Positions 763 to 7,926 of a stretch of 64,000 bases of DNA are shown here, one piece after another; positions within the stretch are counted from its first letter, which is position 1, and each line of letters starts with the position of its first letter. A program made the translations under genes and the position numbers. Origin of the DNA: Blastococcus xanthinilyticus (GTDB lineage Bacteria; Actinomycetota; Actinomycetes; Mycobacteriales; Geodermatophilaceae). The stretch spans positions 248,001-312,000 of the forward strand of contig NZ_VNHW01000004.1 in the NCBI RefSeq assembly GCF_008124835.1. Reading direction: 5' to 3'. The notes below the pieces were generated by a model. That model did no database searches. It was given only the letters and a program-made list of their open reading frames with translations, and was not told where the DNA came from.

Positions 763-784
763 GGCGACGTTCTCCGTTCCTCGG

Positions 785-918
785 TCCGCCTACCAGGTCA
801 GCTGACGGGTTCGGGCCGGAACGTGGCCCTACCTGTCCACCCGTGGAGGCGCGGACGGGATTCACCCCAGAAAACGATGGGTCCCCGGTCTCCCCGGCCA
901 TCAGGCCGGGCAGCTCGG
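785..918 (-). promoter_or_regulatory. ydaO/yuaA (cyclic di-AMP) riboswitch
   Basis: On the minus strand the leader carries the conserved blocks of the ydaO element in the correct order: GGGGACCCATC, then CTGGGGTGAATCC, then GGTGGACAGGTAGGGCCAC, then CGGCCCGAACCCGTCAGCTGAC and CTGGTAGGCG. This matches actinobacterial c-di-AMP riboswitches in front of resuscitation-factor and NlpC/P60 genes. It ends about 20 bases before the start of the coiled-coil gene. Ligand binding normally turns expression off; that is family knowledge. The 5' boundary is approximate. Confidence 0.85.
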
Positions 919-1044
919 CGGGGCCCGCCCGAGCCTCCGGGTTCGGGGGCGGGATCGGGTGGACCGCGACGAAGGCTACAAGCGATCCGGCGACATGTCA
1001 CAGCGAGATAACGGATCGATCCGGTCCGCCCCAGGCGCCCCACG

Positions 1045-1100: not shown

Positions 1101-1177
1101 GGGGCGGTAGCTCAGCCGGTCAGAGCATGGGACTCATAATCCCTGGGTCGTGGGTTCGAGCCCCACCCGCCCCACCA
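1101..1177 (+). tRNA. tRNA-Met (anticodon CAT)
   Basis: A complete cloverleaf can be drawn. The seven-pair acceptor stem GGGGCGG/CCGCCCC is followed by discriminator A and an encoded CCA. The anticodon stem GGGA/TCCC encloses loop CTCATAA with anticodon CAT, and the T arm contains GTTCGAG. CAT could also mark an initiator or a lysidine-modified Ile tRNA; the CTCATAA loop and lack of initiator features favour elongator Met. The 3' part (1133-1175) is repeated exactly at 5811-5853, so this gene is the integration target of the adjacent island. Confidence 0.93.
1133..1175 (+). repeat. attachment-site repeat, left copy
   Basis: A 43-bp segment running from the anticodon loop to the first C of the CCA end of tRNA-Met is identical to 5811-5853. 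Direct repeats of a tRNA 3' end are the usual footprint of tyrosine-recombinase integration. This copy completes the functional tRNA. Confidence 0.9.
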
Positions 1178-1296
1178 CCTGCATGATTGCACTCTGCGAA
1201 TGAAGCACACGGGAGCAAGACCCTAGGACTGTAGCCTTCGGGGAGGGGCAGGGACGGCGTCCGACCGACCCTTCAGCATCCTGACGGAGCATCCCG

Positions 1297-1437
1297 ATGG
1301 CTCGCGCCACCAAGCAGCCGGTGGTCGTCGACGGCATCGAACTGTTCGATCTGCTGGACGACTGGCGCACCCACCTGTGAGCTCGCAACGTCGCGCCGTC
1401 CACGGTGGACAGCTACGTCATCTGCGCCCGGATGCAG
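1297..1437 (+). pseudogene. Tyrosine recombinase (integrase) N-terminal remnant
   Basis: From the ATG at 1297 the frame reads about 27 residues ending LLDDWRTHL, then a TGA at 1378, then continues in the same frame with ARNVAPSTVDSYVICARM. This joined text is the SAM-like core-binding N-terminus of a phage integrase, with a nonsense codon where Arg is expected. After about 45 residues the homology stops and scaffold-like sequence begins, so the catalytic domain has been deleted. Its position beside the left att repeat is where an integrase gene normally sits. Confidence 0.7.
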
Positions 1438-1690
1438 CGCGCCGAGGTGGAGCGACTGGCCGCCCGGCTCCACGAGCCCGACGACCTCTGGGCCTCTGGG
1501 GTGGAGCTGGTCGAGCTGCTGGACGAGAACGGTCGACCAGCAGCGGGTCGCGGAGGCCGTCGCCGCCCTGGCCGACAGCAAACCGCACCTGATGAAGCCG
1601 CCGCGTGTGTCGAACTTCGGGCAGGGCACCCGCACGCCGGTCGACATGGGCAGCGGCACCACCTGGGGATCGGTCCTGCGCGGGCAATGA
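1432..1690 (+). pseudogene. Phage scaffold-like protein, C-terminal remnant (frameshifted)
   Basis: Fused to the integrase fragment is a charged segment (QRAEVERLAARLHEPDDLW... to LLDEN). It continues only if one base near 1531 is dropped, giving VDQQRVAEAVAALADSKPHL and a tail rich in Gly/Thr that ends in LRGQ at 1690. Such a Lys/Pro-rich tail with FGQGTRTP resembles the end of the small scaffold-type proteins encoded just before capsid genes in actinophages. The homology is judged by eye. It is broken at both its 5' end and internally. Confidence 0.45.
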
Positions 1691-1701
1691 GCCCAACGTC
1701 G

Positions 1702-1737
1702 ACCGGCCGGTGAGCCCTGAGGGGTTCACCGGCCGGT
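1702..1737 (+). terminator. 12-bp perfect inverted repeat upstream of the ApeA-like gene
   Basis: ACCGGCCGGTGA (1702-1713) and TCACCGGCCGGT (1726-1737) form a perfect 12-bp stem with a 12-nt loop. No T-run follows. It could be a remnant phage terminator isolating the cargo gene, or an operator. It lies in the otherwise gene-free stretch 1691-1780. Confidence 0.45.
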
Positions 1738-1780
1738 GGACCCCGCTGTACGACCCGCGTGCGGCGCTCGGACATGAGGT

Positions 1781-3220
1781 ATGCACGACGACATGACTGC
1801 GGGGAGTCCCGAAAGGGAAGCAAGCGGGACCTGGTGGGACCCGCAACGGCCAGACCTCAAGATCTTCGGCCGCCTGACATTCGGCGGGACAGTCCCGCAG
1901 TTGGTGCTCGAGGGCGCTTTTCCGGAAGAGATGGGCGACGAGGTCGCCTTACCTCGCACTCTGCACGGCGAATGCTTCTCAAGACCTTTTACTCTCCATC
2001 GAGTCATCTCGACCGAAACTACGCAGCGTCGAGACGAGTGGCGAGCCACCTATCGGGTGCAGACGGTGGTCGAAGGTTGCCACATTGACCCGGCGGCGAA
2101 GTCTGTAGAACGAGTGCTTGTGAGATTTGCAGGCCTAGAACGCTGGATCTCCGATCGCGTCTTCCGTCACGACATCCCCCCGGAGGACTTCGGCACCGAC
2201 GTCGTGACCTATAAACCCGCTCCGAGTCGAGAGGTGTCGGTGTCAGGTGAGACGCCAGGTGTACTTAAGATTTGGAGCAATAGTGTACTCCAGGGCACCG
2301 GCGTCGGGTCCAGGGTGCTAACCATCCAACACTCCGCGCAACTGGTGTTCATCGCGGCAGACGCAATGACACTCGACCATGCAACGTCCGCGATTGTCTT
2401 TCCACTGAAACAAGTTATGAGCATGTTGTTGGATACGGCTGCGATCGAGGAGTCGGTGTCAGTTCGGCTTGCGGGCGACGACGAGATGCACGAGGGCCAC
2501 CCGCTGCACGACGAGAGAATCACGCCGGACGCGGAGGACCCTCTCGGAAGTCGCCTCGACTTCCTGAAACTGCCGGACGCTGGTCTGGAGGTGATGGCCT
2601 CGTGGCTGGAGCTTGCTCCGAGGTATTCGGAGGTCGCCGCCTTGGCTACAGAGGCGCTGCACGGGCATCTGCCCATCCAGAGCAGTCTGATCGCTGCGAC
2701 TGCGGCGGCCGAGGGGCTGCATCGGCTTCTTATGCCTGACGACCGACTGTTGGGCCGGACCGAAAGTAGGACACTGCGGAAGAAGCTCGTTGAAGCCGCA
2801 GGCGCGGAGCACCGTGATGTCGTTCTCAACACCTTGAGTTCACTGGGTGAGGTCAGCTTGCGTACCCGGCTCGCTCACCTCGCTGAGTCGCTCGGCCCCG
2901 CCATGACGCAGCTTGTCACCGACCCCGACGCTTTTGGCGTCAGACTGGCTTGGTTCAGGAATCGCCACGCCCATCTGCTCGATAACGAGGCGCCACCCTT
3001 GGCGAACCCTGCGAAAGAGGATGCCGAGTGGATAGCCCAAGTCACGCTAACGCGCATCTGTGCCCGGGTGGTTGTAGCAAAGCTATTGACCTTGTGCGCT
3101 TGTGATGCGACGGTGCTAGGAAACGCGTTGCGCGCCTCGGCCGATGTTCAGTCGTGGAAAAGTCAGGCGCGCGAACTGATGCCCGAAGTAGTAGCCCCTG
3201 GACCTCAGGACATGATCTAG
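1781..3220 (+). CDS. ApeA-like HEPN-domain protein, candidate anti-phage RNase
   Basis: This is an intact 479-residue protein (ATG 1781; ATG 1793 is an alternative with a better-placed GAGGT). Residues about 17-150 begin GTWWDPQRPDLKIFGRLTF and resemble ApeA N-terminal domain 1. Residues about 290-445 are helical and contain RNRHAH at 393-398, the R-x4-H catalytic motif of HEPN ribonucleases, placed as in Apea-like HEPN domains. ApeA proteins are known single-gene anti-phage effectors thought to cut RNA during infection. Codon use is much less G/C-biased than in host genes, and the gene sits between two broken phage genes in a tRNA island, so it is transferred cargo. Nuclease activity and defence here are inferred from motif and context. 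Confidence 0.78.
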   Translation: MHDDMTAGSPEREASGTWWDPQRPDLKIFGRLTFGGTVPQLVLEGAFPEEMGDEVALPRTLHGECFSRPFTLHRVISTETTQRRDEWRATYRVQTVVEGCHIDPAAKSVERVLVRFAGLERWISDRVFRHDIPPEDFGTDVVTYKPAPSREVSVSGETPGVLKIWSNSVLQGTGVGSRVLTIQHSAQLVFIAADAMTLDHATSAIVFPLKQVMSMLLDTAAIEESVSVRLAGDDEMHEGHPLHDERITPDAEDPLGSRLDFLKLPDAGLEVMASWLELAPRYSEVAALATEALHGHLPIQSSLIAATAAAEGLHRLLMPDDRLLGRTESRTLRKKLVEAAGAEHRDVVLNTLSSLGEVSLRTRLAHLAESLGPAMTQLVTDPDAFGVRLAWFRNRHAHLLDNEAPPLANPAKEDAEWIAQVTLTRICARVVVAKLLTLCACDATVLGNALRASADVQSWKSQARELMPEVVAPGPQDMI

Positions 3221-3403
3221 AGGGAACTCTCTTGGCTTCTTTGAAGCTGGAGATATGGCACAATGAGGGCCGTTAGCTAGTCTGGCAGATTCGGCCTTTG
3301 GTCCCTGTCGGGCACCAATGCGCCAGCGGCGCACCTAAGGGTCTGCGGCCCAAGGGATCACCTCCCATCAACACCGGGGCTGACCTCTTCGGAGCCAGCG
3401 CGC
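3221..3403. other. Intergenic region between HEPN gene and capsid remnant
   Basis: The 183 bp contain no convincing gene. The first part is AT-richer like the cargo gene; the second part reads like a phage leader. No confident promoter or terminator was found. Confidence 0.4.
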
Positions 3404-4044
3404 ATGAACCTGAGCACCGGCACCGCCGGACCCCTCCTCACCCCGGAGCAGGTCGAAGACCTCCTCGTCCTGCCCGTCCTGGCCGCATCCGTGGCCCTCA
3501 ACCCGCTGGTCCCCACCGTCGTCCGGCTCACCGGCTCGACCTACCGGATCCCCAAGGTCACCGCCGACCCGTCGGCCGCGTGGGTGGCCGAGGGCGCGGA
3601 GATCCCCGCCAGGGACCTCACGACCAACGAGCTGGTCGTCACCCCGTCCAAGGTGGCTGGGCTCAGCGTCATCACCTCCGAGCTGGCCGAGGACTCCTCG
3701 CCGGAGGCCACCACCGAAGTCGGTGCCGGGCTCGCCCGTGACGTCGCCCGCAAAGATCGACGCCGCCTTCTTCGGTGACGTCGCCGTCAACGCCCCGCCA
3801 GGGCTCGACAGCCTGACAGTCGGCGAGGGCAACGTGCAGGACATAGTCGCCGGGACGGCACCGATCAACCTGGACGCCTTCGCCGAGGCGCAGATGGTGG
3901 CCGGGAACGTCGGGACGGGACCTGAGGAGCTTCGTCACCAACCCGACGACGGCGCTTGTGCTGGCCAACATCTGCTGGCCGCGCCAAGCGGGCCAGTCAA
4001 AGGGCCGCACGACGCAGCCCGTACGCGCGTGGTCGACCTGCTAA
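3404..4044 (+). pseudogene. Phage major capsid protein (HK97 fold), frameshifted
   Basis: The ATG at 3404 opens a frame resembling actinophage HK97-type capsid proteins, with LTGSTYRIPKV, AAWVAEGAEIP and KVAGLSVITSELAEDSSPEA as landmarks. It shifts frame near 3755 (an extra A in AAAG), continues as KIDAAFFGDVAVNAPPGLDS, and shifts again between about 3908 and 3926 to give SFVTNPTTALVLAN before a TAA at 4042. The end is also shortened and divergent. Two one-base insertions make a full capsid impossible, so this is a decayed structural gene. It converges with, and overlaps by four bases, the DUF6602-like gene. Confidence 0.75.
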
Positions 4045-4943
4045 AAGGACGTCGCCCAGTCGGGTCCGCCACCGCCATACGCCTTGTGGCTCAATTGGCT
4101 ACGTACGTCGGCGGTGAAGACTGCGTCAAGTGGCCATCGCCGTTGCGGTCCGCTGCCCTGGCCGCCGGTTGTGAGGCGAAACCCGTCCGCAAGTCCGGTT
4201 AGTGCGGGATTGGTGAGTGAAAGTCGCTCGTAGAGCCATGAAATGAGCATCGCTACGGGCTGCGGTCCGCTACTGCCGATCATTGCGGTGCTCGCCGAGA
4301 CGCCCGCCGTCGGGATAGCTCCGTTGGGGATGTAGGGCAGGTACATCTGATTCCACATGCCGAGGTCCGCGATACAGACGACGTCTAGACTTTCGCGGGG
4401 ATGCTGCACGAGAGTCTCATCGTTCAGCTCCAAGTTCCGTGCGACATTGTCCCACGGTGCGGAGGCGGGAGATGTCCATGAGTGACTGTGCGCCAAGTAT
4501 CCGAACGGAAAGGGTCGTAGCATTTCGCTGCGCGGTGTGCCGTTGCGCGGCTTGAGTCCACGGCTCAACTTAACTGCGGATTCGGCCGCTTCGCGGAGTC
4601 CGGCGGCGTCCGCCGTGAGCTTCACGGAGAAGGCGGCCGCCACTCCTGCCGCCAATACCCGTTCTTGAACCCTTAGTGCCGTCGGATACGACGGCGCGAA
4701 AACCACAATATCCGTTTCAAATTCATCCCCATCCCCATCCGCTTCTGGCAGGATGTACTTCCTGCGCCCTACCTCATAGCCAGGGGGCAACCACTCGGTA
4801 AGAAACTGGACCCATGTCGCTTCTGCGCCATGGCCAACCTGCTGGATGCGGGCTGGTGTCGCGGCGTCCGCTCGGAGGCGCGCGTACTCGTGGCCCATCT
4901 TGTCGGCCACCATCTCAAGCCACTCGTGATGCGCGTGCTGCAT
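4041..4943 (-). CDS. DUF6602-like protein
   Basis: This 300-residue protein fits DUF6602 by pattern. An N-terminal helix precedes GHGAEATWVQFLTEWLPPGY (38-56), then the acidic strand FETDIVVF (75-82), then AAAFSVKLT (102-110). In usual members this layout ends in a strand of the type IEVKS, which with the preceding Asp recalls a PD-(D/E)XK nuclease site. Here the Glu position is Ser106, with Lys108 retained, so catalysis may be lost or altered. The C-terminal 150 residues are not recognised. DUF6602 genes are common in islands and prophages, and a defence role is only inferred. Codon bias is weaker than in host genes, like the HEPN gene. It is divergent from the next gene. Confidence 0.6.
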   Translation of the reverse strand: MQHAHHEWLEMVADKMGHEYARLRADAATPARIQQVGHGAEATWVQFLTEWLPPGYEVGRRKYILPEADGDGDEFETDIVVFAPSYPTALRVQERVLAAGVAAAFSVKLTADAAGLREAAESAVKLSRGLKPRNGTPRSEMLRPFPFGYLAHSHSWTSPASAPWDNVARNLELNDETLVQHPRESLDVVCIADLGMWNQMYLPYIPNGAIPTAGVSASTAMIGSSGPQPVAMLISWLYERLSLTNPALTGLADGFRLTTGGQGSGPQRRWPLDAVFTADVRSQLSHKAYGGGGPDWATSF

Positions 4944-5191
4944 GTGCTGACCGTGGCAGGGGTCTCGGGCCCTCGCCAGCTGTGGGCGCGGTAGAACGCC
5001 GTCCCAGTGATGACGGTGCTCGACCCGGCGTCAAGGCCGACCGCTGCGGACTCGCCAGGCGTACCGAGGGAGCGCGCTGCCACCCAGGTGTGACTTTGGG
5101 CCGCCAACTTGCTCCATCTGACGTTCCCCGACCTGAGCGGCCACGCTATGGGCAAGTTCCGTTACCGGCGCGGCCCATAGGGTGGCTAACT
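4944..5191. other. Divergent intergenic region in the island
   Basis: About 250 bp separate the DUF6602-like gene from the small membrane protein gene. A minus-strand frame reads across it but lacks recognisable homology and consistent codon bias. It probably holds both promoters; no specific box can be defended. Confidence 0.35.
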
Positions 5192-5680
5192 GTGGCGAGC
5201 TACTGGGTCCCCGTCATCACAGCTAGCGGCACGGTGCTGGCGTCCATCATCACCGGCTTCATCGCCGCGAAGGTCAAACATGGCTGGGACCAGGAAGACG
5301 CCCAGGAGACCTGGGACCGCGAGCGGGCCGAGCGACGGCGAGACGAAGTCCGGGACGCGCTGATGGCGTACATGACGGCGCGGGACGCCATGGAGTTGGA
5401 GGTCATGCAAGCCTTCACGCAGGCCGCCGCTGGCTCCCCGATGACGCGGTCCGACCCCGTGCCCGCAATCATGGCCTTGAAAGGCTACGCGAGCCGTGTG
5501 CAACTGCTCGTGAACCAGGCAACCTCAGCCACGATCGGTGCAGACTTCGACCGTTTCACGACTTGGTACAAGGAACCGCCAGTGACCCCCGGCTCGGGGG
5601 GCAACGGCGCGAGCATCAGTACGACCCAGGGCATCCGGGACTTCGCCCGCACCGTCCTGAAGGACTTGCCGCTCGCGTAG
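5192..5680 (+). CDS. Small membrane-anchored coiled-coil protein, function unknown
   Basis: GTG at 5192 gives 162 residues. The frame is open upstream, but homology-like and hydrophobic sequence begins here. Residues about 4-26 (VPVITASGTVLASIITGFIA) form one transmembrane helix. It is followed by a highly charged helix (WDQEDAQETWDRERAERRRDE) and further amphipathic helices, so the bulk is probably cytoplasmic. No enzyme motif is visible. Similar short TM-plus-helix proteins occur as cargo on actinobacterial integrated elements. Being next to a DUF6602-like gene inside a defence-type island makes it a candidate partner or effector, but nothing in the sequence proves that. Confidence 0.55.
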   Translation: MASYWVPVITASGTVLASIITGFIAAKVKHGWDQEDAQETWDRERAERRRDEVRDALMAYMTARDAMELEVMQAFTQAAAGSPMTRSDPVPAIMALKGYASRVQLLVNQATSATIGADFDRFTTWYKEPPVTPGSGGNGASISTTQGIRDFARTVLKDLPLA

Positions 5681-5765
5681 CTACCCCGGTCCGCGCGCGG
5701 TCCTCCACCCCTTCGCGGAGTGTCTCCGTAGGACCCAAGTACTGGACGCATTTCGGGGCTGCGCG

Positions 5766-5797
5766 ACCTGCGTTTCCGCAGGTACGCACAGTTTTGT
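5766..5797 (+). terminator. Hairpin with weak T-tract at island end
   Basis: ACCTGCG (5766-5772), loop TTTC and CGCAGGT (5777-5783) form a perfect 7-bp stem, followed after seven bases by GTTTTGTT. This resembles an intrinsic terminator for the preceding rightward gene and lies 14 bases before the right att repeat. Confidence 0.5.
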
Positions 5798-5810
5798 TGG
5801 GCCGTGAGTG

Positions 5811-5853
5811 CTCATAATCCCTGGGTCGTGGGTTCGAGCCCCACCCGCCCCAC
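5811..5853 (+). repeat. attachment-site repeat, right copy (displaced tRNA-Met 3' end)
   Basis: These 43 bp are identical to the tRNA-Met 3' portion at 1133-1175 but lack the tRNA 5' half, so this copy is not a gene. It marks the right junction of the island; host-like G/C-rich DNA resumes immediately after it. Confidence 0.9.
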
Positions 5854-6486: not shown

Positions 6487-7404
6487 TCACCCGGTCAGGG
6501 CGAACCACACCGGCAGGGTGAGCAGCGCGGCCGTCGTCGCCACGGAGGTGTGCGCGGCCACGAAGCTGCCGTTCCCGCCCATCCGGGCGGTGAGCACGTA
6601 GGACGCCGTGGCCGGCGGCACCGCCGCGAATGCCAGGACGACGGCCCGCTGGTCGCCCTCCACGCCGAGCAGCGCCGCCAGCCCGAGGCCCACGGCCGGC
6701 ACCGCGACCAGCTTGACCACCGTCAGGTAGCCCGAGGCCAGCCACTCCCGCGGCGCCAGCTCCGCCAGCCGCAGCGCGGCACCGACGGTGAGCAGCCCCA
6801 TCGGCACCGCCGCGCCGGCGATCCGGCCGAGCGTCGTGTCGACCGGCGCCGGCAGCGTGAGGCCGACGAGGTTGCCGGCCAGGCCGGCGACCGTCGCGAT
6901 GATCAGCGGGTTGCGGACGACGGCGGCCAGCACGCCGGCGCCCGGTCGCGCCCCGGGCGACCCGGCGGTGCTCCGTGCCAGCGCCGTCACCGCCAGGACG
7001 TTCACCAGCGGCACGGAGACGCCCAGCAGGACGCCCATGAGCGCGAGCGCGGCCAGCCCTCGGTCGTCGACGAGGGCGAGGGCCAGGAAGGTGTTGAACC
7101 GGAACGCCGTCTGCCAGCCCGACGCCGCCGTCAGCCGGTCGATCCCGGGCAGCCAGCGCACGACCGCGCCGAGCAGCGCGCCCGCCACCAGCGCCCCCGC
7201 CGCAGCCACCAGGGCCGGCCCGGTGCCCGCCGCGCCCAGGTCGGCAGCCAGGGTCGTGCGCACGAGCAGGACCGGGAAGAGGACGTAGTAGACCAGCCGC
7301 TCGAGCTCGGTCCAGAACGCGGGCGAGCGCCAGGCCCAGCGGCGCAGCACCGTGCCGAGGACGATCAGCGCGAACTCCGGCAGCACGACCGCGGCTGCCT
7401 CCAC
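6487..7404 (-). CDS. AEC-family (auxin efflux carrier-like) transporter
   Basis: The 305-residue protein is almost entirely hydrophobic, with about ten membrane helices in two halves of five. The central VPLVNVLAVTAL and RNPLIIATVAGLAGN stretches are typical of the AEC family (PF03547). AEC members export or import small organic anions such as malate or auxin-like acids; the substrate here cannot be read from sequence. A GTG start is used. It lies 69 bp downstream of the ESX-associated operon on the same strand and may be cotranscribed. Confidence 0.85.
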   Translation of the reverse strand: MEAAAVVLPEFALIVLGTVLRRWAWRSPAFWTELERLVYYVLFPVLLVRTTLAADLGAAGTGPALVAAAGALVAGALLGAVVRWLPGIDRLTAASGWQTAFRFNTFLALALVDDRGLAALALMGVLLGVSVPLVNVLAVTALARSTAGSPGARPGAGVLAAVVRNPLIIATVAGLAGNLVGLTLPAPVDTTLGRIAGAAVPMGLLTVGAALRLAELAPREWLASGYLTVVKLVAVPAVGLGLAALLGVEGDQRAVVLAFAAVPPATASYVLTARMGGNGSFVAAHTSVATTAALLTLPVWFALTG

Positions 7405-7473
7405 GACCGCAGACTAGCCATGGCCGAGCACGCCTCCGGCCAACGCTCGGGGCGGGCGCGTCCGCCGGCGCGC

Positions 7474-7926
7474 TCAGTCGGCGCGGGGACCCAGCTCGTC
7501 CTCGACCGCGTCGCGCTCCACCTCGTCCAGCAGGTTCACCGTCCGCGAGATCCCGCTCGGCGGATCCGCCGGGTCGATCACGCTGACCGCGATGACGTCG
7601 AGCGGCGCCAGGTCGCTGTCCCACACCAGTCGGAGCGCCTCGTCGTAGGTGGCTTCGGCGTCGGCGTCCGGCTCCACCGTCACGTCGACGGCCGCCGTCG
7701 CGGACACCGTCAGGTCGTCCCGGTAGCGCACCTCCGCTGCCGTGACGCCGTCCCGTGCGGTCAGCTCGCGCTCGATGTCCGCCCGGGTGCCGGCGGTGCG
7801 CTCCTCCGGGCTGCCGGCCGGCCCCTCACCGCTCAGCCAGCCGCAGCCGGCCAGCGCCAGGACCGCGGGCAGCAGCAGCGCCGCAGCCGGCCGCCGGCGG
7901 CGTGGGAGGGAGCTCACTCGGGTCAT
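7474..7926 (-). CDS. Small lipoprotein of ESX-associated operon
   Basis: ATG at 7926 overlaps the stop of the upstream hydrolase gene (ATGA). The 150-residue product starts with an Arg-rich segment and a hydrophobic stretch ending in LALAGC, a lipobox with Cys28. The mature part is a small acidic alpha/beta domain without a recognised family. It is probably anchored on the outer face of the membrane. Its place as last gene after WXG-like, EspG-like and hydrolase genes suggests a role alongside that set. Confidence 0.7.
   Translation of the reverse strand: MTRVSSLPRRRRPAAALLLPAVLALAGCGWLSGEGPAGSPEERTAGTRADIERELTARDGVTAAEVRYRDDLTVSATAAVDVTVEPDADAEATYDEALRLVWDSDLAPLDVIAVSVIDPADPPSGISRTVNLLDEVERDAVEDELGPRAD

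Follow-up and report, generated by a model that had tools for sequence, protein, structure and literature searches.

A 4.7-kb island inserted at a tRNA-Met gene of Blastococcus xanthinilyticus is best explained as the remnant of a phage satellite whose cargo was retained for host protection, a reading to which a probability of about 0.72 was assigned. The window, meaning here the whole stretch of DNA analyzed (64,000 nucleotides), starts with a reverse-strand peptidase-like gene upstream of the tRNA-Met, and this gene is preceded by a c-di-AMP riboswitch (770-922, reverse strand) to the left of the island. The features of the island, with their positions in the window and the evidence used to assign them, are the following:

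1101-1177, forward: tRNA-Met (CAT), the integration target (ARAGORN and Rfam)
1133-1175, forward: left att copy, the 3′ half of the tRNA-Met (exact repeat)
1297-1434, forward: tyrosine integrase remnant, N-terminus only (match to an intact 308-aa integrase)
1435-1690, forward: head scaffold gene remnant, left border of the cargo slot (match to the scaffold C-terminus of relatives)
1781-3220, forward: ApeA-type protein of 479 aa in the scaffold-capsid slot (Pfam, PADLOC PDC-S58, motif)
3320-3403, forward: capsid-gene leader, right border of the slot (DNA-level conservation in the clade)
3404-4026, forward: HK97-type major capsid gene remnant (PF05065)
4041-4943, reverse: DUF6602 protein of 300 aa, NucC-like (Pfam, PADLOC, PDB NucC)
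5192-5680, forward: small membrane protein of 162 aa (homologue in genome G091, hydropathy)
5811-5853, forward: right att copy, 43-bp repeat of the tRNA-Met 3′ half (exact repeat)

The island had first been described from the letters of the sequence (hereafter, the sequence-only reading) as 4.7 kb bracketed by an exact 43-bp tRNA repeat, and the two copies (1133-1175 and 5811-5853) were indeed identical in 43 of 43 bases and were the sole strong copies of this att in the 4.6-Mb genome searched. The GC content was about 0.58-0.70 within the island and 0.74-0.79 in its flanks. The same reading had called the integrase, scaffold-like and capsid genes broken, and all three were found to be disrupted when matched to intact relatives. 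The integrase N-terminus shared 56-70% identity with a 308-aa tyrosine recombinase that is intact in three sister genomes (G007, G010 and G014), but it carried an in-frame stop after 27 codons and its catalytic domain was missing; its own genome held no close intact homologue, the best being 31-33% identical. The scaffold remnant comprised the C-terminal part only, in two frames with one frameshift, and its relatives matched PHROG head-scaffolding families. The capsid remnant (PF05065, E=1.9e-10) was distributed over three frames (3404-3754, 3753-3914 and 3913-4026) and stopped at residue 211 of the 288 of an intact relative.

By contrast with these phage genes, the three cargo ORFs of 479, 300 and 162 aa were all uninterrupted, as the first description had it, and their defence-type label is supported by the ApeA and DUF6602 family assignments (Pfam, PADLOC and the PDB NucC). 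The ApeA-type protein matched ApeA_NTD1 (E=1.2e-14) and HEPN_ApeA (E=2.3e-7), both passing the Pfam cut-offs, as well as PADLOC PDC-S58. It also presented the HEPN R-x4-H motif (RNRHAH at residue 393), in which R, N, A and H were invariant across four homologues. ApeA_NTD1 followed by a HEPN domain with RxxxxH is likewise the layout of the ApeA HEPN defence proteins, which are covered by a HEPN survey (PMC3710099) and represented by PADLOC PDC-S58, but the window protein was only about 25-28% identical to any homologue sampled. No close homologue was found in genome contigs or viral contigs, and only two distant matches were found elsewhere in 115 genomes of the family.

The DUF6602 protein was assigned by Pfam (E=2.2e-12) and had sequence similarity to NucC endonucleases in PADLOC and in the PDB, where about 140-160 residues were similar (E ~1e-4); a near full-length homologue found elsewhere was 42% identical. 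It differs from NucC in that the ExK motif is absent and SxK stands in its place, and in that no cyclic-nucleotide synthase gene was found among the scanned island ORFs. SxK was also found in the L222 homologue (1447-2418, reverse strand), and L223 has ECK. Because the 42% identical homologue has SxK too, the change from glutamate to serine is a subfamily trait, and SxK was rejected as a sign of decay. The members of this SxK subfamily (window and L222) have in common a glutamate 10 residues further on, which might be a relocated catalytic acid. No close DUF6602 homologues were found in viral contigs, and no mention of DUF6602 was found in the open-access literature. Hydropathy gave the 162-aa protein a single hydrophobic helix, at its N-terminus, and a homologue in another genus of the family (G091) was 53% identical over residues 3-162. 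Single-sequence AlphaFold models of the 162-aa and DUF6602 proteins were poor (pLDDT 44 and 34, respectively) and were set aside.

The location of the ApeA-type gene ties the island to a clade of related elements. The window capsid grouped with those of loci L174, L175 and L180 (Geodermatophilus-type) with a local support of 0.98. The distance from the scaffold end to the capsid start was 1257-1717 bp in all five clade loci in which it was measurable (window, L174, L175, L180 and L210), each of these gaps holding a cargo gene, and 111-310 bp in 18 other loci. Moreover, the 85-110 bp or so directly before the capsid start were conserved at the DNA level in the clade, marking the right border of this slot; this border pattern had no match in viral contigs.

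Family scans of the slot genes covered the window, L175, L180 and L210. The slots of L175 (8538-9584) and L210 (10481-11611, reverse strand) contained a related membrane protein, 76% identical between the two genera, which had no family match and is a candidate for a new defence gene. The L180 slot encoded a CyanoTRADDas_TM protein, which no PADLOC model matched, and that of L174 (10862-11621) a 78-bp tandem repeat coding for a hydrophobic glycine-rich protein. Additional cargo was located near the capsid gene or its remnant, such as Septu PtuA/PtuB-like genes in L174, a second, distantly related ApeA-type gene in L175, PDC-S19 in L179, SIR2 and TIR-NB-ARC-TPR genes in L211, a weak match to HEPN_RiboL-PSP in L209, and one gene in L212 that matched HEPN_Swt1 and PDC-M34B weakly. 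Part of the cargo of the related loci had no defence assignment, and L177 carried an apparently secreted protein. In five of five clade loci, the cargo varied and was enclosed by two element genes that are conserved, a layout also known from P4 satellites and P2 phages, whose antiviral hotspots contain variable antiphage genes between two conserved genes (PMC9122126). The slot differs from these hotspots in its borders, scaffold and capsid instead of psu-int or gpA-gpQ in an unrelated element, and in that the carrier element of the window is decayed.

Decay of the capsid gene was recurrent. Among the eight loci whose capsid sequence was closest to that of L174 (L174 included), seven had a broken gene with differing lesions and only L174 an intact one:

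Window: frameshifts and truncation
L175: frameshift and gap
L180: residues 1-62 and 252-288 remain
L211: residues 12-50 and 233-284 remain
L210: residues 2-39 and 178-288 remain
L209: residues 200-288 remain
L208: residues 87-288 remain, with a stop

The breakpoints differ, and the losses were therefore independent events; the scaffold gene was likewise broken or shortened in the clade.

The sequence-only reading had interpreted the intact cargo as selective survival and had suggested dN/dS as a check. When stops and frameshifts only were counted, all four lesions fell in the approximately 333 phage codons and none in the 941 cargo codons, which favors selective survival; under equal decay the chance of this is (333/1274)^4, P ~0.005, a value that presumes the same residence time for all genes. 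Broken cargo genes tend to go unnoticed, and intact cargo is therefore over-counted. The window cargo itself has no direct dN/dS because close homologues were not found, and the ratio was determined in relatives. For the L175/L210 slot gene, intact in both copies at a dS of about 0.9, dN/dS was 0.17 (0.12-0.24), and in the same two loci the capsid C-terminus gave 0.32 (0.19-0.47); other comparisons of capsid fragments gave 0.15-0.74, and the intact capsid pair 0.40. Thus, dN/dS leans weakly toward selection on the cargo but separates cargo from capsid remnants poorly, and the check did not discriminate.

In the favored explanation, a small capsid-encoding satellite of the phiRv1/phiRv2-like candidate PICI kind would have entered the 3′ end of the tRNA-Met by means of a tyrosine integrase, leaving the 43-bp att copies. 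The satellite clade carries a variable cargo gene in a slot bounded by the scaffold gene and by the capsid-gene leader, and more cargo past the capsid gene, as seen in five loci; the window copy has the ApeA-type gene in the slot and, further on, the DUF6602 and small membrane protein genes. Its integrase, scaffold and capsid genes have since decayed or been deleted, leaving the element stranded with its cargo intact, and replication genes would have been lost as well, judging from their presence in relatives. The cargo was most likely kept since it protected the host. Going by their families, both the ApeA-type and the DUF6602 proteins would have roles in phage defence: the former, as a HEPN protein, is expected to be an RNase triggered by phage that shuts down the cell in an abortive infection, and the latter is probably a second, nuclease-like effector.

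Alternatively, the cargo might have come late onto an already dead satellite that served as a neutral landing pad, being intact because it is young and not because it was selected. The ApeA-type gene was not found in the other 23 genomes of the genus and the GC content of the cargo is low, and its acquisition may therefore be recent. However, this gene lies exactly within a slot whose conserved borders are common to four other loci, which suggests that it was loaded while the element lineage still moved, and the L175/L210 slot gene has remained intact in both copies at the divergence and dN/dS given above. Late arrival was consequently regarded as unlikely.

The same tRNA-Met was found in all 24 genomes of the genus, the sister sites being located via the tRNA and backbone genes. 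The site is empty in G004, G023 and G008, because the conserved downstream genes lie within about 0.3-0.7 kb of the tRNA. G005 (L065) shares the downstream gene order and has an insert of about 8 kb at the tRNA-Met with a SmaI-type restriction enzyme, a C5 methyltransferase, an AIPR/AbiU-like gene and an integrase, and G012 (L057) has a 15-kb satellite-like element with integrase and terminase genes between two att copies. Since the sites of the sisters are either empty or occupied by different islands, the tRNA-Met is an integration hotspot. The sequence-only reading had proposed to look in sister strains for empty sites and for elements with an intact integrase. Empty sites were found, and in G007, G010 and G014 the intact 308-aa recombinase starts close to this tRNA-Met; the outcome named as a refutation, in which all relatives would have the region without the repeat or with syntenic non-phage genes, was not what was observed. 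No tRNA was found near homologues of the downstream GIY-YIG gene. In G021 about 24 kb lie at the same tRNA-Met, and in G010 partial tRNA copies occur up to 187 kb away.

These observations also bear on whether the island is still alive, with related integrases and helper phages moving it in trans and its own integrase and capsid genes dispensable. Both att copies are exact, a matching integrase occurs at the same tRNA in the three sister genomes mentioned, and capsid loss is recurrent in the clade. Against this, no integrase, excisionase or replication gene remains in the island, which is single-copy in the 4.6-Mb genome, and this genome contains no close intact integrase. Mobility in trans was therefore held to be improbable, and mobilization of the broken window copy by a helper phage is unlikely. 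The description of the island as fixed is supported in part: it has lost its integrase, of which its genome lacks a close intact homologue, but the two att copies are identical, which would in principle allow later excision by an incoming related integrase.

The assignment to a satellite, which the first description had proposed, was supported by compact relatives with integrase, scaffold and capsid genes, among which the pattern recurs. The phage matches of the capsid fragment were 10.9-11.1-kb Mycolicibacterium phages, one of which was examined and contained scaffold, capsid and serine integrase genes; no open-access literature was found on the 11-kb Mycolicibacterium aichiense phages. In cellular genomes, the fragment matched small elements of Geodermatophilus, Blastococcus, Mycobacterium gordonae, Nocardia, Microlunatus and other Actinomycetota. 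In the relatives with intact genes, the scaffold and capsid genes follow an integrase of the serine or tyrosine type and, in many cases, a primase/AAA gene. Two serine-integrase relatives, L177 and L179, split a cpaF/tadA-like gene (Flp pilus ATPase), the halves of which flank the element (2276-2890 and 12399-13010 in L177; 17613-16981 and 7342-6734 in L179), and the N-terminal part of such a gene adjoins the L174 element (6907-7602). That the island is instead a decayed ordinary prophage is very improbable: integrase, scaffold and capsid genes are found in full phages too, and the deleted content is not readable from a 4.7-kb remnant, but the island contained no recognizable portal, terminase or tail sequence, the closest relatives whose capsid is intact combine integrase, primase, scaffold and capsid genes in a compact element, and the best phage matches are 10.9-kb genomes.

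Among known satellites, the phiRv1/phiRv2-like candidate PICIs of Mycobacterium carry integrase and major capsid genes, with scaffold and replication genes in some, and their tyrosine-integrase members occupy tRNA genes (PMC10654092). The window likewise has integrase and capsid genes at a tRNA site, and the two features expected of a phiRv-like candidate PICI, an integrase remnant at an exact att and a capsid remnant, are both present. It differs in that its phage genes are disrupted and it lacks replication genes, in having a scaffold-capsid cargo slot, and in carrying defence-type cargo instead of the ESX-secreted toxin systems reported for that group (PMC10654092). Capsid-forming PICIs and MulchRoom/MiniFlayer are also satellites that encode their own capsid protein (PMC10690885), as the window element does, but they add portal, connector and terminase genes. 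When the main island ORFs were scanned against PHROG and Pfam, the capsid was the sole phage structural gene that matched, and no portal, protease, connector or terminase gene was recognized; such genes could have been deleted from the island. The island was accordingly classed with the phiRv-like candidate PICIs, as a degraded element, with the scaffold-capsid slot and recurrent capsid loss as a new variation.

A wider reading, offered as tentative and not as the probable one, is that this satellite clade made the scaffold-capsid junction a cargo slot and that its defence-loaded members repeatedly lose capsid and integrase, becoming fixed, vertically inherited immune loci in a recurrent domestication. 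Satellites are known to carry antiphage genes, and the fate of this cargo after the death of the satellite has been little studied. Comparison across genera of a single slot, its border sequence and several capsid genes that were broken independently makes domesticated satellite immunity directly testable. It also provides a search rule for unrecognized defence genes, which may be sought between scaffold and capsid remnants, as exemplified by the L175/L210 membrane protein. Dead satellites may therefore act as holders of bacterial immunity.
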